DNA of 60,482 nucleotides. Source: a virus. The position numbers were made by a program, and so were the translations under genes. The notes beneath the pieces are model-generated. The model was given only the letters and a program-made list of their open reading frames with translations. It made no database searches and had not been told where the DNA came from. Below, piece by piece: positions 3,187 to 56,106 of this stretch (positions are counted from its first letter, which is position 1; each line of letters begins with the position of its first letter). The stretch lies in the IMG/VR virus record IMGVR_UViG_3300042401_001867, positions 1 through 60,482 of that record, one strand, 5' to 3'.

Positions 3187-3408
3187 ATGAAAAGGGAGAT
3201 TATTTGGCGCTTGACCGAAACTCAAAAGGCGCTCATTATGAGAGCAGTTCTACATTGCCCAACCCAAACGGGAATGGGCGCTGAGGAACTGGAGGAGTAT
3301 TGGGCTCACTCAAGCGCACTTGAGTTGGAACTTGAGCAACTCGGTCACGGTGGCGAGGGGTTGTGGTGGTATTTGTACCACAACACCAAGCGCCGAAAGA
3401 AGCGCTAG
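3187..3408 (+). CDS. small hypothetical protein, 73 aa
   Basis: Starts at ATG 3187, eight bases after the AAAGGGGG ribosome site in the duplicated leader at 3164-3177; an in-frame GTG at 3178 sits inside that site and is less likely. Mostly helical, His- and Glu-rich in the middle, with a basic tail ending RRKKR. No family recognised. The region to 3463 is the convergence with a minus-strand gene and contains no clear terminator. Confidence 0.65.
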   Translation: MKREIIWRLTETQKALIMRAVLHCPTQTGMGAEELEEYWAHSSALELELEQLGHGGEGLWWYLYHNTKRRKKR

Positions 3409-39700: not shown

Positions 39701-42398
39701 GTGATTTATAGATTGCCCTGACTATCTTCTTGTCCTCAAGAAGCTCTGATTTCATTCCTTCGGAAATTCCTGGTTCTTTAAGCGATATTTCGATGTCGGC
39801 AAGCTTCTGTATAGCCTCGTCCGCGGTCATGCTGTCCGCTCTTTCTTTGAGGTTCTTTATATCCTGCCGACGTGCTCTTGCAGCCATCTCCTCTGGCTGG
39901 AGTAAGCCCTCGGCAAACATCGTCTGTCTAACCGACTCCCTCATCGACTTCATATCTTTTTTGCGCTTATCGCTATCAGAGCTACTAAATCTTTCCGCCC
40001 ATTTCTTTTCGATTAGCGATATGTATGCGTTTGTCTCTTTTATCTTGCGATTTATTTCCTTGAACTGTGGAGAGTCTTTGCTTTCTCCGCTAGCTTCCAG
40101 ATTGTCATATGCAGCATTGAGCGCCTCTCTTCTATATTCAAGCTCTGCAAGACTGCCAACAAAATCATCACTCGTAGTTGATTCGTCATTGGACCATTTG
40201 TCAATCTGCGATAGTCGTCCCTTATGTTCCGCTTCGAGTCTTCCCTTTACTTCCGCGATGCTGTTTCCGCTAAGTTCTGGGTCTGGTCCACGGTTTTCAT
40301 AGAAGCGAGCCTCTATGTCTCTCAACCCATCGGCGTCAGACCTTCTTCTAATATCCAGATATCTACCATCGGATATATCATCCATCCACTCAAGGGCAGA
40401 ATCTATGTCGTCTCCATAAACTAGGCCAAGGTCCCTTAGTGCCCAAAGCTCCGCTGTTGCCTCGAGGGCCCATACCTCTGCACCGTATTCTTCATTGAAA
40501 TACATCTTCGGGTAGTCGCCGGCCAGGAAGCCGACAACATCCGCACGGGAAAGTGCATTCTTGAGGGACTCAAGGTCAATCCCGTCGCTTGCTTGTTTCA
40601 TCAAACTAAAAACCATGTCGCTATTAAGTTTCTTAATGTCGTCGACGCGGACTGTTTCTCCCTTGCTGTTTAGGACACTTATAAAACCATTGGTCCTAAT
40701 CTGTCTTTCTGCCTCTCGTGAGAATGCCTGGAACTGAATGGTGTGAGCGATTTCATGCTTCATGATGTGTCTTGCAAAAGCTCTTTCCTCAACCATTGCT
40801 GCAAGCTGTTTTGAATGACCATCAACAGTCACCAGGAAATCCGTAAGTGCTTTTGCGCTCTCCGAGTCTGTTTTGCCACCAATAAAGTCTATTTTTATTC
40901 TTTCATTGGGGGCAAGACTGGGAATCATCGCTTCTTGATTATTCATTATTTCGGGAATATCAACATTGATTATGCTCATTAAGCGGTTGGTGTCTGGTGT
41001 TGTGAACCCCTCCGTTGAGGCCTCGTCCATCTCTTTGCCGTTTGGATTTTTGACTTGGAAATTTATTTTAGATATGGTCCTCATATGTTCTGGGTCCGCA
41101 ATGAAGGAGTCCAGAGATGCCTCTAGGAGCGCTCTTTCTGTTGTGTACCATCTTTCGGTATCTGCTTCAATCAGTTTTTTCTGTCTGTCTGGTGGCAGTT
41201 TCGAAAAGCCAGGTACGTGCGTGAGTCGAGCTCTCACAATCTTGTCAACATCTTCTGGTGAAAGCCTCGTGCTTGTATCTACAGTCCAGGCTCCGCTCTC
41301 CCTGAGCTTCTCAAAAACCTCGAAAACATCGTCATTGGTTTTTCTTTTTTCGTCAGTCCTTACGACACCCAACATGTCCATGAGGCTCGCAATTCCTATG
41401 TCCTGCTGTGCAAGCTTGTCTTGAGCACGAATCATTCCATCTACGAATACGCGTCCGTTTTCGGTTTTTTGTACTTCGCGCCATTTCTTAATATCTCGTA
41501 TTCTGTTCCCATCTTGGTCACGCCATACAGTGCGTCCAAGCCCTGGTATCCCGCCATTATCAAGCCACGAGACGAATTCGAATAACTTTTTTGTAGAGTT
41601 TTTGACTTTAGCGTCACCGTCTAGGTCTATTCCACTAGCCATCCGTTTGGCAAAGTCGAGTATCTCCGAAGCGGACACCCCGAAACAGTTTGTTCCAGTA
41701 CTATCGGTAAATTGGTTTGCGGCTGGAGTTCCTGGGGGACATCTAAATTTTCCATTTTCATCGACCATTATTCCGAAAGCGCTTGCCGCCCGTGCCAGCA
41801 AAGACCTGCCTCGCTGGCCGATAGTTCTTCCCGGAAGTCTCTTTACCTGGTAGTCGGTCGATTCACTTTTCGTACCCCCACTGAGACTGAACGGGTCAAG
41901 CAATTGCTCTGACTCTGGAATTATCTCGTCTGTTTTTTTATTTACTTTATATTTTCTTATTCGTAGTTGAGGTTTTTTTGCAAGTTCTTTTGCGTACTCG
42001 TCTGCCGTTAGGGATGGCTGCTTATCAATCCATCCGAAGTTTGGTTCCTTGATTGCAGATTTTCTAGATTTGATAGATGGGAATAACTTGAGGACTTTGC
42101 CGTCCTCCCACTTCTGGTTTGGGTCGTAGCTATAACCATTTGGTAGTTCGACCATACCTGGAGTACCGCCAGAATTTGTTCTCTTTTTTCCGTCCGTATC
42201 TTTGTACGTTTCGCTTCCAGAAGCAGACTCAAGTGCCTTGATTGAGAGACCGACGTTTAGTGTTGGTCTAGATATTGATTCATGTACAGCACTCTTGAAC
42301 GCAATTGCAGCGTCGTTCAAGTCCCTCTTACTTGCAAGAGGAGATATCAACCTCTCGGATGTTATCGTACGTGTTTTGAAGAACGGCTCACCCGTCAT
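33708..42398 (-). CDS. giant head-operon polyprotein with zincin, GNAT-like and ART-like modules (about 2896 aa)
   Basis: Start at ATG 42398 (MTGEPFFKTRTI) after AAAGGGCG; a longer frame to 42458 overlaps the previous gene. Modules in order: N-terminal region with CPPGTPAANQFTDSTGTNCF (about 225); a zincin-type motif HEIAH (548-552); long charged coiled coils (about 680-1000); LSSG sites at 1499, 1968, 2347 and FSSG at 2559; a GNAT-like block VPEDYHRRGHGRLMLSLAEK (about 2295-2315); an Ala/Gly-rich hydrophobic segment (about 2380-2420); and an end (about 2570-2896) with DRTSYGRGEALQSAHRPV and EPFEAQILGGF, resembling an R-S-E-type ADP-ribosyltransferase. I infer that it is cut at LSSG sites and packaged in the head. 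Enzyme activities are inferred from motifs only. Confidence 0.75.
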   Translation of the reverse strand: MTGEPFFKTRTITSERLISPLASKRDLNDAAIAFKSAVHESISRPTLNVGLSIKALESASGSETYKDTDGKKRTNSGGTPGMVELPNGYSYDPNQKWEDGKVLKLFPSIKSRKSAIKEPNFGWIDKQPSLTADEYAKELAKKPQLRIRKYKVNKKTDEIIPESEQLLDPFSLSGGTKSESTDYQVKRLPGRTIGQRGRSLLARAASAFGIMVDENGKFRCPPGTPAANQFTDSTGTNCFGVSASEILDFAKRMASGIDLDGDAKVKNSTKKLFEFVSWLDNGGIPGLGRTVWRDQDGNRIRDIKKWREVQKTENGRVFVDGMIRAQDKLAQQDIGIASLMDMLGVVRTDEKRKTNDDVFEVFEKLRESGAWTVDTSTRLSPEDVDKIVRARLTHVPGFSKLPPDRQKKLIEADTERWYTTERALLEASLDSFIADPEHMRTISKINFQVKNPNGKEMDEASTEGFTTPDTNRLMSIINVDIPEIMNNQEAMIPSLAPNERIKIDFIGGKTDSESAKALTDFLVTVDGHSKQLAAMVEERAFARHIMKHEIAHTIQFQAFSREAERQIRTNGFISVLNSKGETVRVDDIKKLNSDMVFSLMKQASDGIDLESLKNALSRADVVGFLAGDYPKMYFNEEYGAEVWALEATAELWALRDLGLVYGDDIDSALEWMDDISDGRYLDIRRRSDADGLRDIEARFYENRGPDPELSGNSIAEVKGRLEAEHKGRLSQIDKWSNDESTTSDDFVGSLAELEYRREALNAAYDNLEASGESKDSPQFKEINRKIKETNAYISLIEKKWAERFSSSDSDKRKKDMKSMRESVRQTMFAEGLLQPEEMAARARRQDIKNLKERADSMTADEAIQKLADIEISLKEPGISEGMKSELLEDKKIVRAIYKSRFGNPEDAKEWSKKRRELDTRIDEIVNPPRQQAIKKTKKVKSDSAAAKYAKKMQKENAVLMTADEIKAVERLGDPAQSDIANLLDPDSSVSAVKNINRKYRRAQRSAGDLSPESESATLEDKIERTLIPVMEAMDESSIPDDMEIEAEMFFDVKNGFKLIEENLDNPGLLTGRIISEESPHKPGEVRDGNGEILTRKGKEKSRVIVQVSKGDRGLFGTRETPLGEEGLLTIPPGKLRVVDTRPDGTIVVRVQEQDNVIDVLDRVSFSIGEEGPGASQNAKGTKKKIDRVSNKYVAKRRENGMPSTGSKPKREVEIEEKNTEIKREVIKAGGSFGEPPSEDYVAELVKTPLIQPDEADIKPDEVDPKTGRAMAKLKSNMTVDELVNRRAAVYRSLLDPDYANDPRGFQGQDRATLRSIDEELAKRGENISSLPKPADFDPDHKSGSKKKAPYKTSSGSSSDPTSGREVLGIPQTREQRKEVRTSRAQIAMGDLKKILAGESPTEVTNDMSRDSLDPAVANEIARKSPEALIKDIEDAASEFHAGVDKRPRVRMTESQLTKFANDGELLPTETDDIVLESGAIGRRLERRLNPATRRSSPGLSSGKRSDSPQTFPTAESNLAELQERSVKAKERVANLEKALDVLERTGEWRGEEFGVVITNHPDWKRDIGKFDADTPPVNITKEEIEKRFGSVEFLVNLAEEKLDRSKKEIVLAEHLAKTKEVRAQQNTLDIEDITPDDFQLLLDEYEQLAPEDYGSSVVHVGQSELDGGVLDPSKTTGGEELGAVGGVGNTGALNQNQISNLKRDNDRLKESLTSSESILKSFNEGEKTYTPKDALEAAFLNKLLDVDTTSLGAVGFKEGIAYDITRMSSAGALSKINSELESLKPQIKNNEQTLEAVQGAGKFGFVSAYPASEPVNTDGYFGRNAGSVIPKDIATYRTEVEAKLRQRPQYDDVKDREFLDRWMRTLRGSAYLVTDTSVISSDLGPRSLGEKQILGKVKPIFSVSAPKGGYNPLTSEDAKRNEWGKATNALMARAIRLEREGREVTPASVLGARRGKPLSDSNSSSVKLSSGARVSLKKRKIQLQKVSDAEKYLRNLDLQIAEVDLIDSETGKEIKSPIFSVAGRPMVLVDVNGIRIPFYQSTGKGGKENPTGKWYPIFGVGKSDLIFDREFKRFIDRGGWFNKGDTYESIDNYYDVPEFKRIATILNDIDDLTKINFYDVGVVASEGETLELLKKNGSTGYASSKLPKARMSVNDDLLKVINRDLTPYSTVGDAERSGGRRWDYINSVIDRIEKNRVKLDINSVSVAVDKDKLSVSKESNRIKSRDVQLTVKDKNGDAIKVSIESELETRFDDREVQNVTVRMRSNGTQVGVLYARTDIRGELGNQDKLTISDVLVPEDYHRRGHGRLMLSLAEKYNIGSEKINHSSKLSELGELFAGGTGSDSGRLSSGARSGTSRTQRVAGIAGGRATGRVLDAVLKRSGADEDTRERVKYGMNMAGALAAGGPAGFATALAVDVSRRAGREIAERGLEEAVQRGKITQQQMDVAMQAVNRVAPNGLPDPVVDKLADAWSVASDFIDERVATDENMQRLDEFGDVIRASGSEFVTNAGEVVDSAREKIGKRFRRGKNSKSATDSFSGSDDNTYEPAKTEFDDFSDPFSSGKRAGRSADAFRGEYNSRIGISKSTPNSAKPVSGYVVHRSHNEEKKRQIAASGKGNIGSDAIFEIGDTDVVGDGLTALGEIEVILKPEVSDRTSYGRGEALQSAHRPVSMNSSDADDIADALFNADGISSKEQNTEAMLHLLGAKMDKNFSSVGASRDENGKMSPVGMVDSGARGHEPFEAQILGGFKKNEVEGIHYPYSKVSKIAESEDISDVVSQNSMKSKLEKLGFTPEEIAYFYSMSGGKPINTASMTKLKEYRTAKKIKEQYEGMGIGYVKFAHPQGINIENPRSYDKTANQNARVDEILKKAIDAEIDAELKSTLDSIRKGQQLDLVVD

Positions 42399-42414
42399 GG
42401 CGGGTCGCCCTTTC

Positions 42415-43833
42415 CTAGAGAGTATCTGTTTCTGCTTCGAGGAGCTGGAACTCAACAAGTGACTTCATAAAGTCTCCATCAAGAGTCTCATCGTCTTTCT
42501 TGCTCATTCCTTCTCCACCAGCAACCCAATTAGCAGGAATCAAATTTTCCTTGCCGAGTTCTTTTGCTCTCTTCATGATGTGCTTCTTTGTGGCGTCCTT
42601 GTCCTTTGCTCGTCCAAATGCTTGGACTGCGTTACGGAGGTCGGTCTCACTAGCAATCGGGTATGAGCCATCTGGCATTGCCGTTCCAGCTTCTGCCATT
42701 GAAGTGCGCTTGTCTTCACTGAAGGCTCTCTTCAGAGCAATTTCTGCAGCCTCTGCTTCAATGTCTTCTGATTCCTCTGGTTCGTACTTGTCGTAGCCAA
42801 GAACCTCACCGTCAAGAGCGACGAATACGTCGTATGACTTGCCATCGAATCCTTCGATTTCTACGGCGTAAGAATCTATGCCTTCAAAGTTATCTGGCTC
42901 GACAGCAACAACATGTCCGTCAATTGACTTGACTGCAATCTCTGCTGCATCGGTGAAGCTGATGAGGTTCAATTCGTCAATGGCTGCCTTTTGCTCAAAG
43001 ACACTTTCGTCAAGCTTGTGCCATCCCATAACTTCTGCTGATGTTCCATCAATGAAAACCTCAACTGCTTTTCCATCTTTTGCCTGAACATCAACAACGA
43101 ACATGTCGGCGTCTGGCGAGTAACCAGAGTCGATGACTTTTCCTTCAAACATGTCTTCGGCCATGCCTTCTGCCTCAAGCAAACCTGGCATTCCTTTTTC
43201 TGCAATGCAGCCACCTGGGCAGTCATCACAAACCGAAGTTGCACCATCATAGGACTTGCGCTCTATCGCGCAAACATAATCATGGTCACCGAAGTCTTCT
43301 GACTTAATTCCCATGGATGCGATTCTCTTCTTACGGAACTTGTCCATCATGAAATTGACCTTTTCGGCCTCTGCCATGTCCTCTTCGTCCTCGTTGTCCA
43401 TTTCGTCTTCTGTTAGTTCTTCTTCCTCTTCGTCTTCTTCAGACATTTCTTCGTCTTCTTCAGACATTTCTTCGTCTTCTTTTTTCTTAAACTTACGCAT
43501 GGCGGTGTTGATTTTCTCTTCACCCTCCATCATCTCTTCTTCTTCTTCTTCTTCTTCGGAATCCATATCTACACCCATGCCCATGCCCTTCATTGGCTTC
43601 TTTTTAGGCATCATCTCGTACATTTTTTCCATGTCTTCTTCTGACATCTCTTCATCAGCAATATCCAAATCAGTTGCTGGTACCATCTTCATCTCGACCG
43701 GCATTGCACCACACTTGCCGCACACCTTTGCGCCAGGCGTATAGCCACATGCAGATGCATCCAACCCCTTTGCGCATCTGAGCACAGCGCCTTCACTGTC
43801 GATGCCCACTGTTGTCTTGTCGTCGTAAGCCAT
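42415..43833 (-). CDS. acidic head protein with zinc ribbon and PepSY-like repeats, possible scaffold (472 aa)
   Basis: Modules: an N-terminal Cys cluster (CAKGLDASACGY, CGKCGAMPVEM); a very acidic low-complexity segment (about 85-155, runs of E with repeated EEDEEMS); a Cys block CAIERKSYDGATSVCDDCPGGC; two PepSY-like units with FVVDVQAKDGKAVEVFIDG and YAVEIEGFDGKSYDVFVALDG; and an end with DGSYPIASETDLRNAVQAFG and RAKELGKENLIPANW, a block common near phage capsid proteases. It lies directly after the protease polyprotein, where HK97-like phages can carry a scaffold. No LSSG site. Scaffold role is inference. Confidence 0.65.
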   Translation of the reverse strand: MAYDDKTTVGIDSEGAVLRCAKGLDASACGYTPGAKVCGKCGAMPVEMKMVPATDLDIADEEMSEEDMEKMYEMMPKKKPMKGMGMGVDMDSEEEEEEEEMMEGEEKINTAMRKFKKKEDEEMSEEDEEMSEEDEEEEELTEDEMDNEDEEDMAEAEKVNFMMDKFRKKRIASMGIKSEDFGDHDYVCAIERKSYDGATSVCDDCPGGCIAEKGMPGLLEAEGMAEDMFEGKVIDSGYSPDADMFVVDVQAKDGKAVEVFIDGTSAEVMGWHKLDESVFEQKAAIDELNLISFTDAAEIAVKSIDGHVVAVEPDNFEGIDSYAVEIEGFDGKSYDVFVALDGEVLGYDKYEPEESEDIEAEAAEIALKRAFSEDKRTSMAEAGTAMPDGSYPIASETDLRNAVQAFGRAKDKDATKKHIMKRAKELGKENLIPANWVAGGEGMSKKDDETLDGDFMKSLVEFQLLEAETDTL

Positions 43834-43969: not shown

Positions 43970-46900
43970 TTAACGTTGTTTTCGTGAGTTGTCGCTAAGT
44001 TGAAGAAGTCTGGTCCATTGGGCTGGAGTCAAAAATCCCTTTGATTGAAACTGGGAGAAAACACTTTGGGCGAATCCGCTCCATCTGGCATTCTCGGCCC
44101 AACCAATCAATTCGTTTTGCATTCTTGGGGTTATATTCTCTGGCGCTCCATTGTTTTTACGGCCAGAGGAAAGGCTTTCGGTAGCTTGGTTCCCAGTGTT
44201 TGAGATTCTTCTAGCTGCGCGTCTTCCGCTGCTCATTGAAGAGCCACCCTTGATTGAATCAACGGTCTCGTCAAGGCCAAACTTCTTGTTCAGTCTGTCA
44301 ACTATTTCCTTAACTTCGTCGTCGTTGTATCGAAGGGCTTTTCCAACATTTTTGCTGAACTTCACTCCTCCGTCTTTCTCAAAAGCTTTGAGTCTCGTCT
44401 GAACCTTTGTTGCTCCAATTACATCATCCAACTCAGACCCCTTGGCCTTTATACCGGCTTTGGCAATAGCGTCACTAACCTTTTTCCAAAGGTCGAACTG
44501 CTTTATCGAATTGTCGAATTCAACACCGTCCTCACCGAAAATATCTCCAGCATTTGGAATAACTCCGCTTTCGACCAACTGTTCGATTACTCCGGTTGGG
44601 ATTCCGCTCCGCTTCCATTTCTTAATCTGGTCCTCTGTGGGCGTAATTCTCTCGCCATCAACCTCGAAGGTAAGTGCTTCTGCTATTTCTGCGATGGATT
44701 TTACTCCCAGTGCGTCCGTCAGGGTGGAGAGTCCAAAACCGCCTTTGGCCGTTTCTCTAGCGACGAACTGCTCGGTCACTTCGAATCCTTCTGGCGAAAG
44801 AATACCGTACATGGCGATTCCTTCATCCATGTAATCAGCGTATTCTTCGCGGCTTAACTGATTTCCCCTTCTGTAATCGTACCAATAAGGTTTTGAATCA
44901 AAACCCCAAATCGCCTCGATAGCCGAATCTGCCGCACCAAGGTCGGCACCATTAAAAAACATTCTGTCAACAAGGGTGTTCACATCAGCCTCGGAAATAG
45001 CAGCACCTGGAGCATTGAGTTTTTCTGCTTCTGCTTTGCTTATTCCCATAAGGGCGGCAATTTCGGTAGTGTCCAGAATTTCGCCATTATCATCTTTTAA
45101 TATGAGCTTGAGCTTGCTCGCATCTAGCATCCACTTGCCATCTGGCGACCTGTCGTTGTTCTCGGAAAGTTTTCCTACCTTTATGGAAGTGGCTGCAGAT
45201 ATCTGCTCCCCTATTCTTCTTCTCTTTGTTGAATCCGGGAACTTAAATCTTCCAGAACCAAGACCACCAACATCGAACTCATCCTTGCTTGGCGCCGGCT
45301 TTTTCTTTCCTGGGATTGTTGCTGCACGCTGTCTCACACCGTCTGCGAAAGCCTGACGGTCTTCGTCAGACATTGGTCGGCGCTTTGAGCCTTGCGTTCT
45401 CTTTTTTCTCCCAGAGCTAAGTCCTGGGTCGTTTCCTGGCTTAAGGAAATCGTTGACGTTGCCTTCGACTATGTCGGAGCCAGGGAGATTTCTGGACGCG
45501 AAAACATCTTTAGGCTTTCCGGTAATATCTTCTCTATCTGGATTTACTCCGCTATTTTCAAAGTCTATCTGAGTGTCGTACAGGCTGGTCAACTCTTTTT
45601 CAAGACCATTTACGGCGTTGTAGTAAAAGTTTTTTAGACTCGAAGCAAACTCTTCAGGAGATGTGTCTTTGTCTGTGGAGTCAATAAGTTTTTTGATTTC
45701 AGCTATTTGCTCCTCATACGAGACAGGGGAGGACCTATCCTCTGCATTGTCAACACCTTCGAGTGCTTCGATGATTGATTCCGCATCTCTTTTCATCCAG
45801 TAAAGAGCATCTTCGACATCTCCGTCAGCATCTTGAATATGTCGCTCCATCGTTGATTCAAAATCAACAACTTTTCCTCTACGGTTTGGATTTGCAAAGT
45901 TACTTTCTAGCTTCGCGATGCTCTCTTTCATTTCATCGATTTCATCGTTAAGGCTGGAAAATTGCTCTTCTCTCCAACTTAGTTGGTCATGAATGGCATC
46001 TATTGCATCGTCGATGTCTGTCAATAAGTCAAAGTCTTCGTCCGATACATTCGCATACTGGTCAATCTGGAAAATGTAAGCGTCAGCAGGCACCTTCTTG
46101 CCATCGAGCAGGGAGCGAATCAAATCATTTCTCAGGGCAACAAGTCTGTCGAGAGAGTTAACTGCTTCTTGGTGGTCTTCAAGGGCGATTCTTTGAACTG
46201 AACCACCTCTACCTTCCCTGCCTAGCGTTCCGCCAAAAGCGTTTTGCACAACCATGCTCTCGTATCTGGCGTCGTCTTCAATTTCCTTACGCACTTCATC
46301 AAGTGGTCTGACTTTTCCAGAACTCAATCTGTCTGAAGTGATATTTCTGGTTCTCTGCGCAGAGGAACGAGGAGCACCCTGTGGAACACCAGGCTGTGTT
46401 GGGTTGTATGGGGCATCTGCGCCATCAATTATCCCCTCAATCTTGTGAAGACTGAAGCTTCTGTATTGACCTGACTCTTCGTCAAGACCAATGAAATAGA
46501 CCCCTCCACCCTTCTTGGCCATCATCCCGGTTGGATAAACCATCCTTGGCTTACCGTTGTAATTGAATGAAACGACTTCTCCGTTTCTGCGTATGGCGTC
46601 GAAGTCATACTTCTCCACAGAAACCATCGGAAGGTTCAGAGCGATGTATCTTGCGTTTGAGCCAGCTTCATCGGTCCTCTTTAGGGCGTCTGTCACTAAA
46701 CGAATTTCTTCAACTGGCTTGTCGTCGTATCTTGAACGAGCACCCGAGGAGAACCTACTGTTATCTCTGGACAATTCGGCCTGAATATCGTTGGCCTCGT
46801 CGGCCCAGTCTTCTGGACTCCAATCAAGGCGCGATTCGTCTATCTCGGCAATCATTCGAACATACTCTCGCCTGTCCATGCGCTCACGAGAAATTAATTT

Positions 46901-49900
46901 TGAGTTTTCGTATTCAGAATCTCTACGCGCTTCTTCCTCGTTAAGCATTTCGGCAATTTTTTCAATGTCCGTCTCTTGTTTGAACTTCTTTAGCCATTCG
47001 CGTCGGCCGTCTTCGTAGTCAAGAGTCCATTGCGCAAGGTCTGCTGGGGACTTGAAGCCTTCGGAACTTATACCCGATACATCCCAGTCAATCTCGTTGT
47101 CTTCGCCGACACCGTCCATGAACATCAACTCTGCGAACCATTCACCGGAATCATCTTGACTCATACTCCACTGATTAACGCCTCTGTCGCCGAGGGATGC
47201 GCTTGCTTCGTAGTAGTTCTTGTCTCCATCACGATACGGTCTTATCATCGCGAATCTGTCCAACACTTCGTCGTCTGGCATGCCAAGTTCGTCGGCGAGA
47301 GTTCTTGCTGAACCATCGATATTCCTTATATATTTATCTCTCGCCCCAGACGAAAGCGAAGGAGCGATACCCCCATATGAGGAGTCTCCATTCCCAGGGA
47401 GAACACCAGCCTCAGCAACTTTTTTGCCGAGTTTCTTACTCATCGATGGTGACTTGCTTATTGCAAAGTCGTGAGCTTTTTGTGCTTGCTCAAACGCGCT
47501 CTTTAGAGCATCTGGGTCTGACCTAAGTTTCTTCAACCATGAAGCAAGGTATTGAGCGTGGTCTTCTCTTGGCTCTGGAGTTAAGCCGTGTGCCGTCATA
47601 AAGAATGCCGAAGCTATTTCTGCAACGAGTTCTTCCTGTGCGTACTCAGGGCTTCCAAAGTCACCCAGGTGGTCTCTGTTTAGACGGTCCTTATGTCCAG
47701 TCCAGTGCATCAGCTCATGAGCAAAAACTGCGTAATAAGCTTCCTTGCTCTTGAAAGAGGAGAATGGAGGGAGCGTTATTTCGTCTGTAGACGGTCTATA
47801 GAACGCTCTGTCACCGACATGGTTGACTATTGCACCAACTTCCGAGAGTGCTTTTTCGAGTTCGTCAACGCGCTCTTCTTCTGAGAGTTGCGGCATCTTG
47901 AATTGCTCTTTGTCAATTCCTTCTATCTGGTCAAGGTTGAATACGTGTCCTGTTTTGAAGAAGACCGAACCTGACTTGACTTCATTTCCGTCGGCATCTT
48001 TCTTTGCAGGAATGATTGTCGGGATGATTATCATCGTTCCCTTTTCACCCTTGCGAACTGTTCCGCCCTTTTCTTTCCACTGGTTGAAACCAGCCCATAT
48101 TCCGGTTTCGTAATTCATTGCGTCTTTTCTGAACATCAACATCAGTGAGTTGATTCCAGAGTATGGACGATTGTTATTCATGGCGTTACGCGGAAGAGAA
48201 GCATCTCTGTGCCAAGGGAATTCCCACTTGCCACCTTCTGTCTCTGCTTTTTGAATTTGTTCGATGAGCTGCTCTTGGACGCTTCTATAAACTTCGTCCA
48301 ACTTTCCTGAAGACAAACGCTGTCCAGGATTCATATCTCCGATTGGGCTTACGTACTTCTTTTCCCCAGACCCAAGAACATCCCCACCCTGTCTTGATAA
48401 CCAATAGTTTGCTTCCTTGTCTTGGTCGCGCATTAATTGGAGGTGTGTTTGCTCTATACGTCTAACCTGTTCACGCGTCATGCCGAGCGCCTTGGCTGTT
48501 TCAGCAAGAGATTCCCCTCCCATGCGACGGTTATAGACCGCCTCATTGAAGGACAGTTCTGCTGCTTCTTCGGCAGCCATGCGTGCCTGGTCTTCTCTGT
48601 ACGCCTCAATGTCATCGAGGTCTAGATTCTGCTGCGCTCCGCGCTGACGGGAGATATGGCGCAACTCTGCTTGACGGACTTCCTGACGCTTCATACCGAG
48701 TGCAGCACCAGTTTCGGCAAGTGTCTCTCCACCCATGCGGCGTTCGAATATTTCTCTGTCGGAAATTATTTGTTGTTCTTTATTTATCTTTCTTCCCGAC
48801 GAAAGATTTCGTGACTGACGGTTGTCATAAAGAGTTTCCTGGTCATCTTGATACAGGGCTGTTGCGGCTCTGGCAAAGTTTGTACTGAAGTCGTCGCCAT
48901 CCTCTTTGTATTCAGACAGGTACTCGTTCTGGCGGGAGTCGTTGTCGTACCAGTTTTCAAGAACTCTTTTTGCTTCATTCTCGCTTGAACCGAAATCAAT
49001 CAGAGCACTCGTAAGCTCCCGCTCCGTTTCTCTGTAATAGGCTTCATCTTCTAGGCCATCATCGTCATCACCAGCATCTGGCAAGCCATCAGAACGACCA
49101 GAGGAAAGCTTGCTATCTTTGTTCAACTCGTCGTATAGGGGGCCTCCCTTTTTGTAATAGTCGTAGTCTGGGCTGGCCTCATATTCGGCTACTGCTTTCA
49201 AAAAGTTCCGCATGTCCTCTTCGGACATGGAGTCGTTTATTGCGCCACTGAGATTGTAATTGGTTTCATGTGTGTAGTATCCTGGCTCACTGTAATCAGA
49301 TTTCTCAACACTGTATTTAGTGTTCAGGTAGTCCCAAACATCGTCTTGGTCACCGTAACTAACTAATTCTTCGTACACCTCTCTTTGAAGGTCGCTATCC
49401 TGTGGACCGCGACTAATTCCTCTTGCTATGTATCCTCTCTCGGCAGAAAGTCCATCAATTTCTTTTAGGCGTTGAGCCAATATCTCTTCTCGGTTTGGTT
49501 TGTCCTTGCCGCCAGAAGAAAGACCAGGCTTTTTGTTTTGACGATTCTTTAGTATTGAGGAAACTTCCCCGACAAACCTATCGGCGCTTTGGTTGTTGTT
49601 GAAACGTCCAACCTTCTTTCCATCAATCTCTAGGTCGACGGACCCGTTTGGCGCGCTGCGCATGTTCACAGAAAGACCAGAGCCGTCACCATCTAGCGAT
49701 TCCGCAAAGGACCTCGGCGAAGGAGGTGGTTTTCTTTTTCCCGAAGAGAATATGCCATCATCAAAATCACTCTGGTTTCTTCTCACGCCTCTTTCAAGCC
49801 TGTCTCTGGACCTTTGTTCGTCCGACATAAAATTTGCGCGGTACTGTGCGTCGAATAGAGCTTGCTGCAAATTCTCAAGAAACGCAAGTTTGTTTTGACC

Positions 49901-52900
49901 TTCTATGGACTCATCCACGGACATATCATCAATCATTTCTTCAACAGAACTGTTTATCCATGGCATGTCTTCATTTGCTGAAGCCCATCTTTCAACCGAT
50001 GCATCTAGCTGATTGTCAAATTCCCATTCTTCATCATCCCATCCATCGAAGCCATTGAGGAGCTTTTGCAGACTCTCGTCTGCAGCATCCATCTCCTCCT
50101 TGTCGGAGAGTTTTCGACCGGAAGACAAATTGGTATTACGGTCTTCGGAACCAGAAGAAGGCCTTCTCTTGTTTATCTCTCTTTGCAACGCATCAAATAG
50201 AAGTTCTTCGCTTCCAACTATGTCGGCTACATCCTCAACACTGGAAGGTGGGCTGAACGCTTTGTCCTTATTTTCTTCTTCCAGAATTTCAATCGCTCTA
50301 TCATAAAGATTAATATAAGGAAGACCTTCCTCTATTTGCTCCATTGAAAGACCATCTTCATCCGAAACGCCCTCTTCGGGGTCAATGCCGTCTGCGATGC
50401 TTCCTTCCATATCTCTTATGAATTTGTATCTAATGAAATCGGCCAGCTCTTCATCGGTTATTTCTTTGTCTGGAGTATAAGAATTTCCTTCTTTACCCAA
50501 CCACACCAGTCTTTGACCAGCAACCCTCTCGCCAAACTGTTCTTGAACTTCAGGTGCAAAATATTGTTGTCCTCTAAATATTTCTTTAAGGATTGCTTTT
50601 TGTTCTTCTTTGTCCCCAGATTCAAGTGCAGATTCAAGTGCAGCAAGTCTCCTCTCACGTTTAGTGCTCGCACCAGAAGAAAGACGTGATGCGCCACGGT
50701 ATGGCACAAAAGGTTTATCGATAGATTCATCCAAGGCTCTAGAAATTGCCTCTGGGTTTCTTTCTTCTGCTATTCGCTCAACGGGTTTTTCTTTGTAATC
50801 ACTAAATCCTGCTGGTTCCGGCTTTCGACTCTCCAGCTCTCTTCTTATTTCTTTTAGGCGATTTGTATTTTTGTATTTGTCGTCGGCGCTTTCTGGGCGC
50901 TTCCTATTTTTCAACTCCCAATATTCGTTAACGAGGTCGTCTGTTTTGGCCAGAGAGTCGGATGAACCAAGGTCAATAGGCTTTTTGTCATCCTTCCTTG
51001 GGGCAGAGCTCAACTTATCGCTACTACGGCGAGGCTTGGGGGTGTCTCCAGCGGAGCCAATATTGCTTGTGCGGCTTCGAGACCCGCGTGACCCATTTCG
51101 AGATGTTCTGTCGACGACCCCCTGGAAATACCGAGAGGCTTCCTGATTGAGTTTTTCTTGGTCTTTGGCATACCACTCTTGGTATGTCAACTTTCCGCCA
51201 CTACGGCTGTAGTTTTTCCATCTTCTTTCTAGGTCCCTTCTTGCATCCCCAGCAGGAAGGCTGTCTGGTTTTCCTCCGCGGCCAAGGCCGGTTGGCATAA
51301 CGGCTTCTTGTATTGCACGCACCAAGTCTTCATTGTTGGTATTACGGTCTTCAGAACCAGAAGAAAGCTTGCCTGTAGTCCTTTTCGGAGCCTCTGGCTT
51401 CTTTCCGCCCGACGAGAGTGAATCACGACTCTTCCTTGGTGCAGGCTTTTGAACACCATCGAGGAGACCAATGTCGTTCAGGTACTCATTCAGGGTGGCG
51501 ATATCATCCTTCGCCCAGTCCTGTGTGTCTGGGTATTTGGCTTTAACGTCATCTTTTAATGCAGACTCAATTCCGTCCCAGTTATCTGAGTCATCCTTGC
51601 TGTGTGCGTCAAGGTAAGCGCTAACAGATTTTGCGTAACTTGAATACCAGTTGCTGTACTCCTGCGAGGCCCTTGCCTTTTCGTTAAATTTTACAGGGCG
51701 CTTCCTCACGGAGTCGCCATCCCACATGACACGTGCTTGGTTGACACCAATTTCGCGACCGCGAAGATAGTCAGAACTAAAATTCTTATCTGCGTTATAG
51801 CGAGGGACTTCTTCCCATCCAAGACCTTGGTCTTCCCATGCTTTGGCGATTGCTTCGTGGTCTATGCGCTTTTGATTTTCCTCGGCGTTTGGAAACTGCT
51901 TTTCCATGTCGGCGGAGCGGTCTGCGTGTCTACGCTCATTTCTCTTTCCGCTAGAAAGTTTTTCTTTTCCATCTGGCTTTTTAGCGTCAGCAAGTTGGCG
52001 CTTAGATGGTTTTGGGTTATCGATTGAACCAGGACCGCTTGGAGTTGGGTCTGGCTGTTCCCATCCAGGAACATTGTCAAACAGTGTTCCGTCGAGGTTG
52101 CTGTCTCTACGGGTACGTGGGTCAAGGTCGCCAGATGGTATTCCCATCCCGCGTCCACCACGGCGCTTCTTTCCGCCGATACTAGGTCTGTCAATAGCAC
52201 GACCAGCAATTCTGCGGCCGAGTGCTTTTTCTTCTATATCCTCAGAGGCTATTTTTTTTTTTAAAAAACTATAAGCAGAAGCCGTAGCAGTGCTGATGGC
52301 ATCCTTTGATTCCTGGCTTAGTGGGGAGTTGATTACAATCCCGTACTCATTAACGATGGTATCAATTCTGTGATAATCAAGAACTGGGTCAATTATTGAC
52401 TTGAACTCAAAAGCATCTTCAGGATTAACTGGGATGACATATGAGTACTCGTGCGCCAAGAATGGGTCGAGACCCTTCTCTTCGAGCTCGCGCTCCTCTG
52501 TGCCCCACTCATCGAGAGTCTTGTATGACTTGCGCTTCTTTCTGCGCTTCTTAACAAGATTTCTGAAGGTTCCAAGAATAAATTCACCAGGGTATTTGGC
52601 TTCAATATCTTCAATCATCTTGATTTCTTCATCATCAAGGATGTCGCTGTATTCTTTTTTGCCAAATCCGACCACAACTCCGTCTGGAATAATTGCAAAT
52701 CTGCACTTGCCTTCATCCTCCACCTTCAAGTCGAGAATCTTGCACTTGCCCTCACCTAGATAGAGGACACAATTCGAGCACTTAACGCCAATGTTTTTTA
52801 CTTTGTTTTCTGCTGGCGGATAATATCCAGCCCAGATTCCGTCACCATCTTCGTCAAACTTTCCATACTTGCCAGCAATACGAACAAGCGATTGGGCAAG

Positions 52901-53920
52901 CTCGCTTTCCTCTGCGCCAAGCTCTGGTTTCTTTTTGTCTTCAGAACCTTCATATTGAACGGGGGTCAACGGAACCATAATCATTCCACCATTACCTGGC
53001 TTCATGGCAACAGGCATTGACATCGCAGGATTATTTGTTGAAGGCTTGTTCGGCTTGCCCATGATTCCAGGCATTGGAGACGGACCAGATTGAATTGCCG
53101 GTTTTGGCTGTTCTGCATGAATTAGTTCTGGCTTACCAAACATGTACTCACTTCCAGTGAAGTGGTATCCAATTCTGAATTTTCCTTTTCCAGGCTTAAC
53201 AAAAACTACAGAATTCTCTGTCGCCTCAACAACCATTACTGGTCCTGCGGCACGGCGCGAAAGCTCTGCAACCACACCAGCAAGCTGTGGTCCACTGATT
53301 CTCTGTGACATACCTTCGTCGAAGATTCCATCTCGTCGTGGTTCCGGCGATGTCGGAGCACCCATTACCATAGGCATCATTCCGTGCATTTTCTCTTCGT
53401 CGCTCTTGACCGAGATTGTTCCAGTCAGTTGATTTGCGCCATGAAGAACAGGTGATACTTCGTAGAGTTCCACTTCGTAGAGGACGTTTGCTTGAAGGTT
53501 GTCATCGTATTGCGCTCTAAGGGTTTTGTACCCAATCGACCACTCTTGCTCTTCGCCAAAGAAAGCGACGTTTGCAAACGCTTCTTTGCCTTTTTCTGAC
53601 TGAAGGTTGAACTGCACCTTTGCGTACAGACCACCAATTCCAGCCATCTTCATCTTCATTGGGAGTCTTTGGTCCGATGCTGGGACTTCGTAAATTTCTA
53701 GAACTTTACCAATTGGGTCGTTCCAGTTGTGACCCCAGACAACGCGAGGCTTGCGGCGTTGAAGGCTCTTGGCGAATGCGCCAGTAGCACAGATGTCGCC
53801 AACGGAGTCTTTATTGCCAATTCCGGAAACGAAACATTCGACAATACCCTCTAGTTCATCTAGTTTGATGAGACCATTCGAGGCCTTGTATTGAATGTTT
53901 CCGAAGTTAGAGTTTGGCAT
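43970..53920 (-). CDS. prohead protease fused to giant LSSG polyprotein (3316 aa)
   Basis: Residues 1-175 are an S78-type (HK97 gp4-like) prohead protease: LEGIVECFVSGIGNKDSVGD, His64 in VVWGHNW, Ser128 in EEQEWSIGY and Glu154 in ELYEVSPVLHGAN. Then a Cys-rich unit (CSNCVLYLGEGKC, about 380-410) and a region with GRRIAGRAIDR. From 655 on, 18 motifs [LFMP]-S-S-[GA] begin at 655, 835, 852, 970 (LSSA), 1080, 1254 (PSSG), 1265, 1391 (FSSG), 1467, 1605, 1706, 1869, 2189, 2390 (FSSG), 2532, 2834, 3229 (MSSG) and 3250. Recognisable modules between them are two tandem HTH units (about 1726-1756, 1796-1826), and an ArdC-like protein (1869-2188). A usual S78 protease is about 200-250 aa, so about 3,000 aa is extra. 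I infer self-processing in the prohead with release of packaged proteins. Confidence 0.85.
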   Translation of the reverse strand: MPNSNFGNIQYKASNGLIKLDELEGIVECFVSGIGNKDSVGDICATGAFAKSLQRRKPRVVWGHNWNDPIGKVLEIYEVPASDQRLPMKMKMAGIGGLYAKVQFNLQSEKGKEAFANVAFFGEEQEWSIGYKTLRAQYDDNLQANVLYEVELYEVSPVLHGANQLTGTISVKSDEEKMHGMMPMVMGAPTSPEPRRDGIFDEGMSQRISGPQLAGVVAELSRRAAGPVMVVEATENSVVFVKPGKGKFRIGYHFTGSEYMFGKPELIHAEQPKPAIQSGPSPMPGIMGKPNKPSTNNPAMSMPVAMKPGNGGMIMVPLTPVQYEGSEDKKKPELGAEESELAQSLVRIAGKYGKFDEDGDGIWAGYYPPAENKVKNIGVKCSNCVLYLGEGKCKILDLKVEDEGKCRFAIIPDGVVVGFGKKEYSDILDDEEIKMIEDIEAKYPGEFILGTFRNLVKKRRKKRKSYKTLDEWGTEERELEEKGLDPFLAHEYSYVIPVNPEDAFEFKSIIDPVLDYHRIDTIVNEYGIVINSPLSQESKDAISTATASAYSFLKKKIASEDIEEKALGRRIAGRAIDRPSIGGKKRRGGRGMGIPSGDLDPRTRRDSNLDGTLFDNVPGWEQPDPTPSGPGSIDNPKPSKRQLADAKKPDGKEKLSSGKRNERRHADRSADMEKQFPNAEENQKRIDHEAIAKAWEDQGLGWEEVPRYNADKNFSSDYLRGREIGVNQARVMWDGDSVRKRPVKFNEKARASQEYSNWYSSYAKSVSAYLDAHSKDDSDNWDGIESALKDDVKAKYPDTQDWAKDDIATLNEYLNDIGLLDGVQKPAPRKSRDSLSSGGKKPEAPKRTTGKLSSGSEDRNTNNEDLVRAIQEAVMPTGLGRGGKPDSLPAGDARRDLERRWKNYSRSGGKLTYQEWYAKDQEKLNQEASRYFQGVVDRTSRNGSRGSRSRTSNIGSAGDTPKPRRSSDKLSSAPRKDDKKPIDLGSSDSLAKTDDLVNEYWELKNRKRPESADDKYKNTNRLKEIRRELESRKPEPAGFSDYKEKPVERIAEERNPEAISRALDESIDKPFVPYRGASRLSSGASTKRERRLAALESALESGDKEEQKAILKEIFRGQQYFAPEVQEQFGERVAGQRLVWLGKEGNSYTPDKEITDEELADFIRYKFIRDMEGSIADGIDPEEGVSDEDGLSMEQIEEGLPYINLYDRAIEILEEENKDKAFSPPSSVEDVADIVGSEELLFDALQREINKRRPSSGSEDRNTNLSSGRKLSDKEEMDAADESLQKLLNGFDGWDDEEWEFDNQLDASVERWASANEDMPWINSSVEEMIDDMSVDESIEGQNKLAFLENLQQALFDAQYRANFMSDEQRSRDRLERGVRRNQSDFDDGIFSSGKRKPPPSPRSFAESLDGDGSGLSVNMRSAPNGSVDLEIDGKKVGRFNNNQSADRFVGEVSSILKNRQNKKPGLSSGGKDKPNREEILAQRLKEIDGLSAERGYIARGISRGPQDSDLQREVYEELVSYGDQDDVWDYLNTKYSVEKSDYSEPGYYTHETNYNLSGAINDSMSEEDMRNFLKAVAEYEASPDYDYYKKGGPLYDELNKDSKLSSGRSDGLPDAGDDDDGLEDEAYYRETERELTSALIDFGSSENEAKRVLENWYDNDSRQNEYLSEYKEDGDDFSTNFARAATALYQDDQETLYDNRQSRNLSSGRKINKEQQIISDREIFERRMGGETLAETGAALGMKRQEVRQAELRHISRQRGAQQNLDLDDIEAYREDQARMAAEEAAELSFNEAVYNRRMGGESLAETAKALGMTREQVRRIEQTHLQLMRDQDKEANYWLSRQGGDVLGSGEKKYVSPIGDMNPGQRLSSGKLDEVYRSVQEQLIEQIQKAETEGGKWEFPWHRDASLPRNAMNNNRPYSGINSLMLMFRKDAMNYETGIWAGFNQWKEKGGTVRKGEKGTMIIIPTIIPAKKDADGNEVKSGSVFFKTGHVFNLDQIEGIDKEQFKMPQLSEEERVDELEKALSEVGAIVNHVGDRAFYRPSTDEITLPPFSSFKSKEAYYAVFAHELMHWTGHKDRLNRDHLGDFGSPEYAQEELVAEIASAFFMTAHGLTPEPREDHAQYLASWLKKLRSDPDALKSAFEQAQKAHDFAISKSPSMSKKLGKKVAEAGVLPGNGDSSYGGIAPSLSSGARDKYIRNIDGSARTLADELGMPDDEVLDRFAMIRPYRDGDKNYYEASASLGDRGVNQWSMSQDDSGEWFAELMFMDGVGEDNEIDWDVSGISSEGFKSPADLAQWTLDYEDGRREWLKKFKQETDIEKIAEMLNEEEARRDSEYENSKLISRERMDRREYVRMIAEIDESRLDWSPEDWADEANDIQAELSRDNSRFSSGARSRYDDKPVEEIRLVTDALKRTDEAGSNARYIALNLPMVSVEKYDFDAIRRNGEVVSFNYNGKPRMVYPTGMMAKKGGGVYFIGLDEESGQYRSFSLHKIEGIIDGADAPYNPTQPGVPQGAPRSSAQRTRNITSDRLSSGKVRPLDEVRKEIEDDARYESMVVQNAFGGTLGREGRGGSVQRIALEDHQEAVNSLDRLVALRNDLIRSLLDGKKVPADAYIFQIDQYANVSDEDFDLLTDIDDAIDAIHDQLSWREEQFSSLNDEIDEMKESIAKLESNFANPNRRGKVVDFESTMERHIQDADGDVEDALYWMKRDAESIIEALEGVDNAEDRSSPVSYEEQIAEIKKLIDSTDKDTSPEEFASSLKNFYYNAVNGLEKELTSLYDTQIDFENSGVNPDREDITGKPKDVFASRNLPGSDIVEGNVNDFLKPGNDPGLSSGRKKRTQGSKRRPMSDEDRQAFADGVRQRAATIPGKKKPAPSKDEFDVGGLGSGRFKFPDSTKRRRIGEQISAATSIKVGKLSENNDRSPDGKWMLDASKLKLILKDDNGEILDTTEIAALMGISKAEAEKLNAPGAAISEADVNTLVDRMFFNGADLGAADSAIEAIWGFDSKPYWYDYRRGNQLSREEYADYMDEGIAMYGILSPEGFEVTEQFVARETAKGGFGLSTLTDALGVKSIAEIAEALTFEVDGERITPTEDQIKKWKRSGIPTGVIEQLVESGVIPNAGDIFGEDGVEFDNSIKQFDLWKKVSDAIAKAGIKAKGSELDDVIGATKVQTRLKAFEKDGGVKFSKNVGKALRYNDDEVKEIVDRLNKKFGLDETVDSIKGGSSMSSGRRAARRISNTGNQATESLSSGRKNNGAPENITPRMQNELIGWAENARWSGFAQSVFSQFQSKGFLTPAQWTRLLQLSDNSRKQR
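47356..48316 (-). other. ArdC-like anti-restriction module between two LSSG sites
   Basis: Residues 1869-2188 of the giant protein. N-terminal half: PWHRDASLPRNAMNNNRPYS, then INSLMLMFRK and GGTVRKGEKGTMIIIP, the ArdC single-stranded-DNA-binding domain. C-terminal half: HELMHWTGHKDRL (HExxH at 2068-2072) and YAQEELVAEIASAFF (third zinc ligand Glu), the ArdC/LtrC zincin domain. Plasmid ArdC proteins are about 300 aa and shield incoming DNA from restriction; the 320-residue gap between two LSSG sites matches a full-length one. Confidence 0.8.
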
Positions 53921-54039: not shown

Positions 54040-56106
54040 CTAAATGAACTGCCCGAACTTCCAAGCTCTTCTTGATTCATCCTCTGCTAATTCAAATCTT
54101 TGCTTAGCCATCAAGTTCGCATACATGCTCACGAGTGCTCCCCTAAACGAGGCAGCCCGTTCTTCTTCACCCATCACCGAAAGTGAATTGAACATAATAG
54201 AAGAGACATTGTTAAAATTCTCTATATTTATGTTCTTTATTCTTATCATTTGCGAATTTATCTGGGCATTTAGGTCGGACTGGTTCATGGTCTTGGCGGT
54301 CTTGTTCCCGTATGCGCTGTTGTAAGTATTGTAAGCGTCCTGGATAATCGCCGAAATAACAGGTCTAATATCCTCGTCCATCTGTTTGTCCCATACTTCA
54401 GGGGACAGGATTGAGTCTATTTCTAGCGTCCCAGCAAACAGTGATTTCTTGGCTTTTGAGCCGCCTGCCTTCTCTAGGACAACTCTCTGTTGTCTCTCGA
54501 CCACTCTCTCGATACTCCGATTGAGAATTTCATTCCACCTATCAAGCGACTCTGTGCTCTTGGATTGAAGTTCATCTTCTATGGATTTATACATCATTTC
54601 CCCAGTTGTCGCAGAAGCTGCCCCCGCTGGAACTGGCTCTGCAGTTGTCGCGACCGCAGCCAGTGCTTCTGGTGGGATTGTGCTTTGGGCGAGTTGGTCT
54701 GGACCTGCTGGCGCCGCTGGGGCTTGTGTTTCTGCAAGGGCCCCCTGCATTGTGTTCGGGTCAAGTGGTGGTTGACCCTCCATTCCAGGCATTGGGACCT
54801 CTGGCATCGGAGCCCCAGGGACCGGAGCGCCAGGAGCGCCACCCATTTCAACGGACGGCTTATCTTCCATTTTCTTCTTAGTGTTAGCAATAGGAATGAG
54901 GTTTGGATTCATGAGCAGTGAGTCGGCAAGGTCGGCTTCTACTTCTTTTCTTCCGGAGCCGGTTCGGTACTCGTTGTTACTGATGAGCCCAGATTGGAAT
55001 TCCTGCATCAGGTACCTCTCTCGCTCTTGTTTGTAGAGTTGGAGAATTGGCACTTCTCTTGTGTCAAAGTCAACGTAATACTCTTCATCCAGTTCGTCGA
55101 GCGAGCGAGCAAGTGGCTCTAGATGGGGGAGCATTGTCTCCATCCAGAAAACGCGTATTTCTTCGCTTGCATTGGAAAATGTTCTTCCTGCAGCATTGCC
55201 AATTACCGATTCTGGGACACCGAACGAAGCAAGAATTTCTTCCTTGGTAATTTGTCGCATTTGCGCGTAAGCGACATCTCTTGGTGAGGCAGAAGTGTCG
55301 ACGTAGTCAACTCCATCATCAGCGGAGATGACAGTTGTGTGTCCAGCCCTTCCGATGTTTCCACGGAACCTGCTCTTTAGCTCCTCTTTATCGTCGTCGT
55401 CAATTTCTCCACGAAGAACCAAAAGACCGCCTGGCCTTCCATCGTTTAGCAGGTAGTTCCTGTTGTAGAGCTTTGCAAGGTTTTCTATTTCAATAGCAAC
55501 ACCAGCAGACTCAAGTGGGGTTAGAGACAGGTATGGGTCTAGTGGGTGTGGTCGTCTAATCCAGCACACGTCCTCTGGCTTCATGATTACTTTTTGACCA
55601 TAAGGCATTTGAACTTCATATCCAGAAACAAACTTTTTTGCATCTGGTATTGGTGATGTTGATTGTGGAGGCAGAAGATTGAGTCCAATGATTCGTCCGT
55701 CCCTGCCACGAACCTTCTCAATGAATACACCACGAGTACCGAGCAGCAACTGTGCCGACATTCTGTATCTAAAAATAAACGAGTTTTCGCCAATGTTTGA
55801 TTTAGTGTTCAAAACCTCAAGCAAAGAATTGTTTTTCGCCTTATTGCCAATGAGTATTTCTCCAGTTGGAGAGTTGTCTTTTCGCAGGATGATTGGCAGA
55901 CGCGCCTGGTTTCCAGCAATTGCATCAATACATCTAGCCACCCACGTGACCTTCTGCATGCCTTCTCGGTATGCGCGCTCAACATCCCACGAGTCTCGAT
56001 ATGGTCTTCCTGCGTAGCTTGGATTCTGCGCTACGGGCGCGCCGGGTCCAAGCTCCTTGGACTGCGCATTTGCGAGTGATTTATTACTCGATTGATTCCA
56101 TGCCAT
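54040..56106 (-). CDS. portal protein with long C-terminal extension
   Basis: 688 aa. The first 400 residues are a HK97-type portal: YREGMQKVTWVARCIDAIA, LLEVLNTKSNIGENSFIFRY, VCWIRRPHPLDPYLSLTPLE, NRNYLLNDGRPGGLLVLRGE and EEILASFGVPESVIGN are characteristic. The following 120 residues are Pro/Ala/Met-rich and probably disordered, and the last 150 are a helical domain (RWNEILNRSIERVVERQQR). Twelve copies form the DNA entry ring at one vertex. First large gene of the head operon, 119 bases upstream of the protease polyprotein. The portal alone is normally shorter, so the tail may recruit internal proteins. Confidence 0.92.
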   Translation of the reverse strand: MAWNQSSNKSLANAQSKELGPGAPVAQNPSYAGRPYRDSWDVERAYREGMQKVTWVARCIDAIAGNQARLPIILRKDNSPTGEILIGNKAKNNSLLEVLNTKSNIGENSFIFRYRMSAQLLLGTRGVFIEKVRGRDGRIIGLNLLPPQSTSPIPDAKKFVSGYEVQMPYGQKVIMKPEDVCWIRRPHPLDPYLSLTPLESAGVAIEIENLAKLYNRNYLLNDGRPGGLLVLRGEIDDDDKEELKSRFRGNIGRAGHTTVISADDGVDYVDTSASPRDVAYAQMRQITKEEILASFGVPESVIGNAAGRTFSNASEEIRVFWMETMLPHLEPLARSLDELDEEYYVDFDTREVPILQLYKQERERYLMQEFQSGLISNNEYRTGSGRKEVEADLADSLLMNPNLIPIANTKKKMEDKPSVEMGGAPGAPVPGAPMPEVPMPGMEGQPPLDPNTMQGALAETQAPAAPAGPDQLAQSTIPPEALAAVATTAEPVPAGAASATTGEMMYKSIEDELQSKSTESLDRWNEILNRSIERVVERQQRVVLEKAGGSKAKKSLFAGTLEIDSILSPEVWDKQMDEDIRPVISAIIQDAYNTYNSAYGNKTAKTMNQSDLNAQINSQMIRIKNINIENFNNVSSIMFNSLSVMGEEERAASFRGALVSMYANLMAKQRFELAEDESRRAWKFGQFI

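Follow-up and report, generated by a model that had tools for sequence, protein, structure and literature searches.

Why would a prohead protease stand at the head of a giant phage protein in which one short motif returns again and again? The question is raised by the IMG/VR virus record IMGVR_UViG_3300042401_001867, all 60,482 nucleotides of which were analysed here (the window). An open reading frame (ORF) of 3316 amino acids (aa) at 43970..53920, with an ATG start and on the minus strand, as are all features of the window described below, begins with an S78 protease domain and then carries LSSG or a close variant of it 18 times. It is likely that in this tailed phage the ORF encodes a cargo polyprotein that is packaged and is cut, in cis and in trans, by its S78 protease at a site specific to the lineage. 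A first-pass annotation had described the N-terminal protease and 18 sites of the form [LFMP]SS[GA] at residues 655-3250, with spacings of 11 to 395 residues, and all of this was reproduced.

The S78 domain (residues 26-176; 53393..53845) matches PF04586 with 37.6 bits (cut-off 21), is assigned by PHROG to the head maturation proteases and scores 49.8 bits with TIGR01543, under the equivalog cut-off of 59. His64 and Ser128 are invariant across 45 distinct relatives and are kept also in two relatives from cultured phages. A PDB sequence search with the S78 profile returned nothing relevant; the core of the AlphaFold model was usable and gave coherent but weak PDB matches to the herpes proteases (assemblins) and to T4 gp21. 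No site precedes residue 655, so that the protease is joined to about 480 further residues in a single N-terminal piece without sites, of which the conserved region at residues 177-654 (51959..53392) is a candidate loading or scaffold part.

Thirteen of the sites read LSSG, at residues 655 (51947..51958), 835 (51407..51418), 852 (51356..51367), 1080 (50672..50683), 1265 (50117..50128), 1467 (49511..49522), 1605 (49097..49108), 1706 (48794..48805), 1869 (48305..48316), 2189 (47345..47356), 2532 (46316..46327), 2834 (45410..45421) and 3250 (44162..44173). The others are FSSG at 1391 (49739..49750) and 2390 (46742..46753), LSSA at 970 (51002..51013), PSSG at 1254 (50150..50161) and MSSG at 3229 (44225..44236), and a doubtful RSSA at 2518 (46358..46369) is a possible 19th site. 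SSG occurs 17 times, compared with at most nine in 20,000 composition-preserving shuffles, and in 2,000 shuffles no 4-mer whatever rose above five copies, against the 13 of LSSG. The DNA 12-mers of 12 of the 13 LSSG copies are distinct, and therefore the identity of the copies is mostly at the peptide level, as had been argued from their differing codons; a codon bias taken up below is the caveat. The peptide SSGSEDRNTN is present twice, at residues 853-862 and 1255-1264 (51367-51335 and 50158-50129 region), and is likely the trace of a duplicated site plus its flank.

When the protease region was used to scan IMG/VR, 448 relatives matched, and the best 80 were kept as loci; all motif-bearing sequences are metagenomic contigs, several of them incomplete. 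Close relatives whose ORFs are complete (~3,060-3,640 aa) still have 11-16 sites of the LSSG type, with their positions shifted. One relative (L076) has an open ORF of 3,620 aa from which [LFMP]SS[GA] is absent, and GF-x-S occurs in it 14 times, in most copies with R as the next residue. For counting, the window was joined with the portal-to-capsid regions of 12 relatives (13 genomes in total) and six dialect patterns were scored. The giant ORFs of each genome use a single motif dialect, which is LSSG, FSSG, GFASR, LGSR, LRSSG, GLASST or STRS, and wider scans gave FSSG, PLGSR, GLSSG, GMRSR, GMASR, GMSS, GLRSST, SMRS and SSRS as further dialects. Most of them fit Phi-[SAGR]-S-[GRS], where Phi is L, F or M, with STRS and SSRS as exceptions. 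The dialect patterns came in part from the very genomes used for the count, although the protease-free ORFs are proteins in their own right and the comparison with foreign dialects is internal. Counted in this way, the protease ORFs hold 146 own-dialect and 3 foreign matches and the ORFs without a protease 87 and 12 (87/99 own). In the large protease-free ORFs, 85 own-dialect matches compare with a shuffled mean of 1.5 and a maximum of 6. The enrichment of R, S, P and G in the linkers around the sites could raise the suspicion that LSSG is an accident of Ser/Gly-rich sequence, but this is refuted by the shuffle tests, and foreign dialects are nearly absent from the same type of linker (146 own vs 3 foreign), which makes a chance origin negligibly probable.

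The sites are not a property of the protease-bearing chain only. In G039 the protease ORF has only 460 aa, and 35 copies of STRS are spread over four separate giants of 2,763-3,372 aa; in G028, 17 copies of LRSS lie in three protease-free ORFs; and in G063 a second giant of 3,490 aa has nine sites. No exact own-dialect match was found in the second large ORF of G066, G046 or G045; the trans pattern, though strong, is therefore not seen in every genome. Between orthologous ORFs of G028 (887 aa) and G035 (877 aa), which are 65% identical, the motif differs at three corresponding positions, where one ORF has LRSS and its orthologue LAS[SR]T. A motif that is common to separate ORFs and switched jointly in each lineage is, at the level of sequence, what one trans-acting recognition factor would predict. 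The first-pass annotation had taken LSSG to be the recognition site of the protease; the idea of a repeated site has held, but the site is better described as a lineage-specific Phi-[SAGR]-S-[GRS] than as LSSG as such. In distant relatives LSSG is indeed lost while the modules are kept, and it is replaced everywhere by another shared motif. To the letter, this is the outcome that the first-pass annotation had named as a refutation; but a concerted switch of this kind is what one trans-acting enzyme predicts, and we do not count the loss against the idea. A possible further dialect, ISGRMG, has about six copies across the large ORFs of L290, too few for certainty, and in L302-L319, L225 and L226, which have short S78 ORFs (~430 aa) and several kilobases of large ORFs, no clear repeated motif was seen in the stretches examined.

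What lies between the sites? Divided at their own motif, the large ORFs of the 13 genomes yielded 277 units of 30 aa or more, with a median of 211 aa. Sites fall within conserved blocks less often than expected (67/259 vs 88 expected, p=2e-4), order-promoting residues are scarce in their flanks (18% vs 28%), and homologous modules hold their boundaries while the motif changes. One module of the window is the unit at residues 1872-2191 (47348..48307), an antirestriction protein ArdC composed of ArdC-N and a zincin MPTase-PolyVal domain, with 6sna as a solved relative (E 8.5e-42). In all nine genomes having ArdC it is a single inter-site unit, at unit index 4 to 18, and in two of the nine it is the last unit of the chain. 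In addition, the unit at 1709-1871 (48308..48796) has two helix-turn-helix stretches like sigma-70 region 4, and that at 2393-2534 (46319..46744) has a weak WYL-like match just under the Pfam cut-off. The relatives carry UvrD helicase, exonuclease, KTSC, NUDIX, pentapeptide and zeta-toxin-fold domains. The expectation of up to 19 packaged proteins needs correction: four of those pieces have only 11-64 aa, the last piece of the chain being 64 aa, and about 15 modules would be expected.

The same boundaries are seen in exchange, most clearly in one unit of the window. The unit at residues 1470-1607 (49100..49513) shares with its counterpart in G066 84% of the residues between the sites and 90% of the DNA. 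Where residues are identical, the codon is identical too in 91% of cases in this unit, but in 44% of cases in the S78 core of the same two genomes and in 46% in their ArdC units. From this difference it follows that the exchange of the unit was recent, whereas the remainder of the two giants separated long before. At the site the similarity ends, with LSSG at both ends of the unit in the window and LGSR at both in G066. Among the further cross-dialect module pairs inspected, with identities of 58% or more, no end carried the dialect of the other genome. In its sequence, the 3316-aa chain conforms to the pattern of a viral polyprotein, with a protease and repeated sites between separable, boundary-keeping and mobile modules. 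If the motif were instead a repeated docking or encapsidation peptide, the giant being packaged whole and the tag coevolving with a receptor in the shell or scaffold, then genome-wide dialects and positions in linkers would also be expected, and the internal proteins of T4 do bear capsid-targeting sequences. Nevertheless, almost all module boundaries have a site and the domains hardly any, an active-looking protease is part of the same chain, and the form of the consensus is like the P3-x-P1 sites of other procapsid proteases, and we regard docking as unlikely.

It seems that S78 is the best candidate for the enzyme that would cut the polyprotein at the motif. In each of the genomes examined (S78 was the search seed) it either heads the giants or is encoded along with them, and it is the only protease domain found in all of these genomes. 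The dialects track the S78 tree: with 45 rows, 12 changes were needed for 11 labels (minimum 10, shuffled mean 26.5), and with 49 rows, 17 changes for 15 labels (minimum 14, shuffled mean 31.3). G066 (L157), the only LGSR genome, has the longest branch (0.63) of the 45-row tree and a shorter one in the 49-row tree, as if the protease had changed fast along with the dialect. Another enzyme might be considered, either a host protease or the zincin MPTase of the ArdC unit, which has a HELMH motif in the window giant and for whose family Iyer et al. proposed autoprocessing (PMC5512222). In contrast, the MPTase-PolyVal zincin was not found in G065, G028, G035, G039 and G038, all of which bear a dialect (their contigs are possibly incomplete), and this absence favours S78 as the cutting enzyme; a host protease leaves unexplained the different dialects among related phages unless their hosts differ. 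Cleavage by such another enzyme is therefore improbable in our view. S78 is favoured but unproven, because dialect and S78 are mostly inherited together. Chance, a pure DNA repeat and processing by MPTase only were each examined and found weaker than the S78 polyprotein. A scan of genome contigs for assigning a host gave four matching contigs in unrelated bins of metagenome-assembled genomes and was rejected as a basis for assignment.

Several observations weigh against a polyprotein cut by S78. The association of dialect and S78 owes most to vertical descent, and taken alone it does not point to S78 in particular. Across clades, sites were often gained or lost, and 53/150 aligned sites matched. 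An AlphaFold model of a five-unit stretch, made for the linkers, had a predicted local distance difference test score (pLDDT) of 44, with even its ArdC region below 50, and was uninformative. The serine codons of the sites are biased to TCT (18/36 vs 46/248 elsewhere, p=4e-4). Such a bias, together with the travel of modules as inter-site cassettes, would suit a recombination seam or insertion footprint that acts in the DNA and has no role in the protein; but the DNA differs in 12/13 LSSG copies, the dialects keep the peptide and not the DNA, and they have switched in place in orthologous ORFs, so that a seam is very improbable. A further point concerns the major capsid protein (phrog_10; 27629..29005), the substrate to be expected for any prohead protease, which has a long N-terminal extension ahead of its conserved region and no dialect-matched site near its maturation region. 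S78 would consequently need another way of recognising the capsid protein, which was also rejected as an independent anchor for the cut site. This was the one comparative test that did not agree with the protease recognition sites proposed for the polyprotein. At about residue 95 the capsid protein reads QLSSREIKSIGEMF, resembling the LSSG dialect; the same position reads PTR or PKQ in the GFASR and LGSR genomes, and for this reason it is probably not the same site as the dialect site.

A second giant of 2916 aa (33708..42458) has no protease domain and five sites (residues 1519, 1787, 1988, 2367 and 2579), which the first-pass annotation had missed; it is a candidate trans substrate. These sites are all in its last half; the 1518 residues before them show neither a site nor a Pfam match, and the C-terminal ~337 residues of this giant are conserved among relatives. 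Between the two giants lies an acidic protein of 472 aa without sites (42415..43833), a candidate scaffold, whose C-terminal domain (DGSYPI...AFGRAKDK) is fused to S78 in the Gordonia phages DalanDe and GMA6. The portal protein is encoded at 54040..56106, and in the small ORFs between the portal and capsid genes no [LF]SSG was found. In most protease-free large ORFs of relatives (L213-L219; G028, G035, G039), a segment like the end of the site-free region of the protease ORF recurs near the N-terminal part, mostly at residues 200-350, with a DGDG...GT element in G028 and G035. Judged by this similarity, the segment may tentatively be seen as a common loading element of the protease-free giants of G028, G035 and G039.

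Taken together, the chain would be laid out as an N-terminal assembly part and a loading element, followed by site, cargo, site and cargo. S78 and the conserved site-free region to about residue 650 are probably built into the procapsid, bringing the fused cargo inside. At head maturation S78 would cut the chain in its linkers, in cis and in trans, at Phi-[SAGR]-S-[GRS] (LSSG here), and about 15 modules, for example the ArdC antirestriction protein, would be freed and ready to exit with the DNA; the second giant would be cut by the same enzyme. The type of cargo and the gene neighbourhood suggest packaging and ejection with the DNA. A drift in S78 specificity could then lead to joint reselection of all sites of a genome and so to dialects. 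With somewhat less assurance than for the window, we lean towards a genome-wide system in a large clade of uncultured tailed phages, in which one prohead protease serves ~10-40 cut sites over one to several giants, a private coevolving dialect has been switched repeatedly, cassettes land between local sites, and specificity partitions a shared pool of effectors.

If this is true, the polyprotein strategy, known from RNA viruses and some eukaryotic DNA viruses, would be extended to tailed phages, and a whole kit of early-infection proteins would be loaded into the head at a fixed proportion. The dialects would be a record of a protease and its many substrates shifting specificity together, and they would permit dividing giant 'hypothetical proteins' of metagenomes into real units, each of which can be studied separately.

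The nearest described relatives in composition are the polyvalent proteins of phages and conjugative elements, which join unrelated effector-type domains, including ArdC-N and MPTase, in one polypeptide, are predicted to enter the host with the DNA and were proposed to be processed by built-in peptidases (PMC5512222). The chain of the window similarly joins S78, sigma-like helix-turn-helix, ArdC-N and MPTase. However, the assemblin-like (prohead) peptidase of polyvalent proteins is described there as always C-terminal, whereas S78 is N-terminal in the window and its relatives, and the modules here are separated by a repeated motif with lineage dialects, a motif that the sections consulted of that work do not show (PMC5512222). 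In phage SPN3US, the head protease gp245 acts at the motif A-x-E (P3-P2-P1) on several internal head proteins, some of which enter the host; mostly it trims N-terminal propeptides off the products of separate genes, at 14 sites in nine proteins (PMC10052503). The motif predicted here is likewise short and in its form resembles such P3-x-P1 sites, and by this analogy the scissile bond may perhaps lie after the second Ser. Unlike in SPN3US, 10-22 sites part cargo modules inside one protease-headed chain, and the motifs (LSSG, GFASR, LGSR, LRSSG, STRS etc.) have no Glu. Phage P1 carries the antirestriction cargo DarA, DdrB and Hdf in its head and ejects it with the DNA, DarA being trimmed by the head protease (PMC12810830, PMC5512222). 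In contrast to the giants here, the Dar system consists of separate genes with at most one cut and no polyprotein.

Among cultured phages, the nearest S78 relatives are those of the Gordonia and Brevibacterium phages DalanDe, GMA6, Hanem and Cantare (39-42% identical), in which the S78 gene is directly upstream of the capsid gene. Their S78 ORFs are of 417-484 aa (1633 in DalanDe) and have no repeated motif, and polyvalent-like genes are separate. No cultured phage with the same arrangement was found, the S78 relatives examined lacking the motif. The first-pass annotation knew of no phage system of this form, and we likewise found no description of a phage prohead-protease polyprotein with repeated sites in the open-licence literature, which is weak evidence of novelty. 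The components are known separately; the N-terminal S78, the 10-22 module-separating sites, the sharing of the site with other ORFs and the lineage dialects were not found combined in that literature. Further parallels come from the capsid-associated polyproteins of other double-stranded DNA viruses, the protease-scaffold UL26 of herpesviruses and pp220 and pp62 of asfarviruses, in which short repeated motifs are cut during assembly. The protease of UL26 is likewise N-terminal and shares its fold group with S78; that of asfarviruses belongs to another class and acts in trans. These polyproteins yield scaffold or core-shell structural proteins by few cuts, whereas in the giants described here the sites are many and the modules that cleavage would release are cargo.
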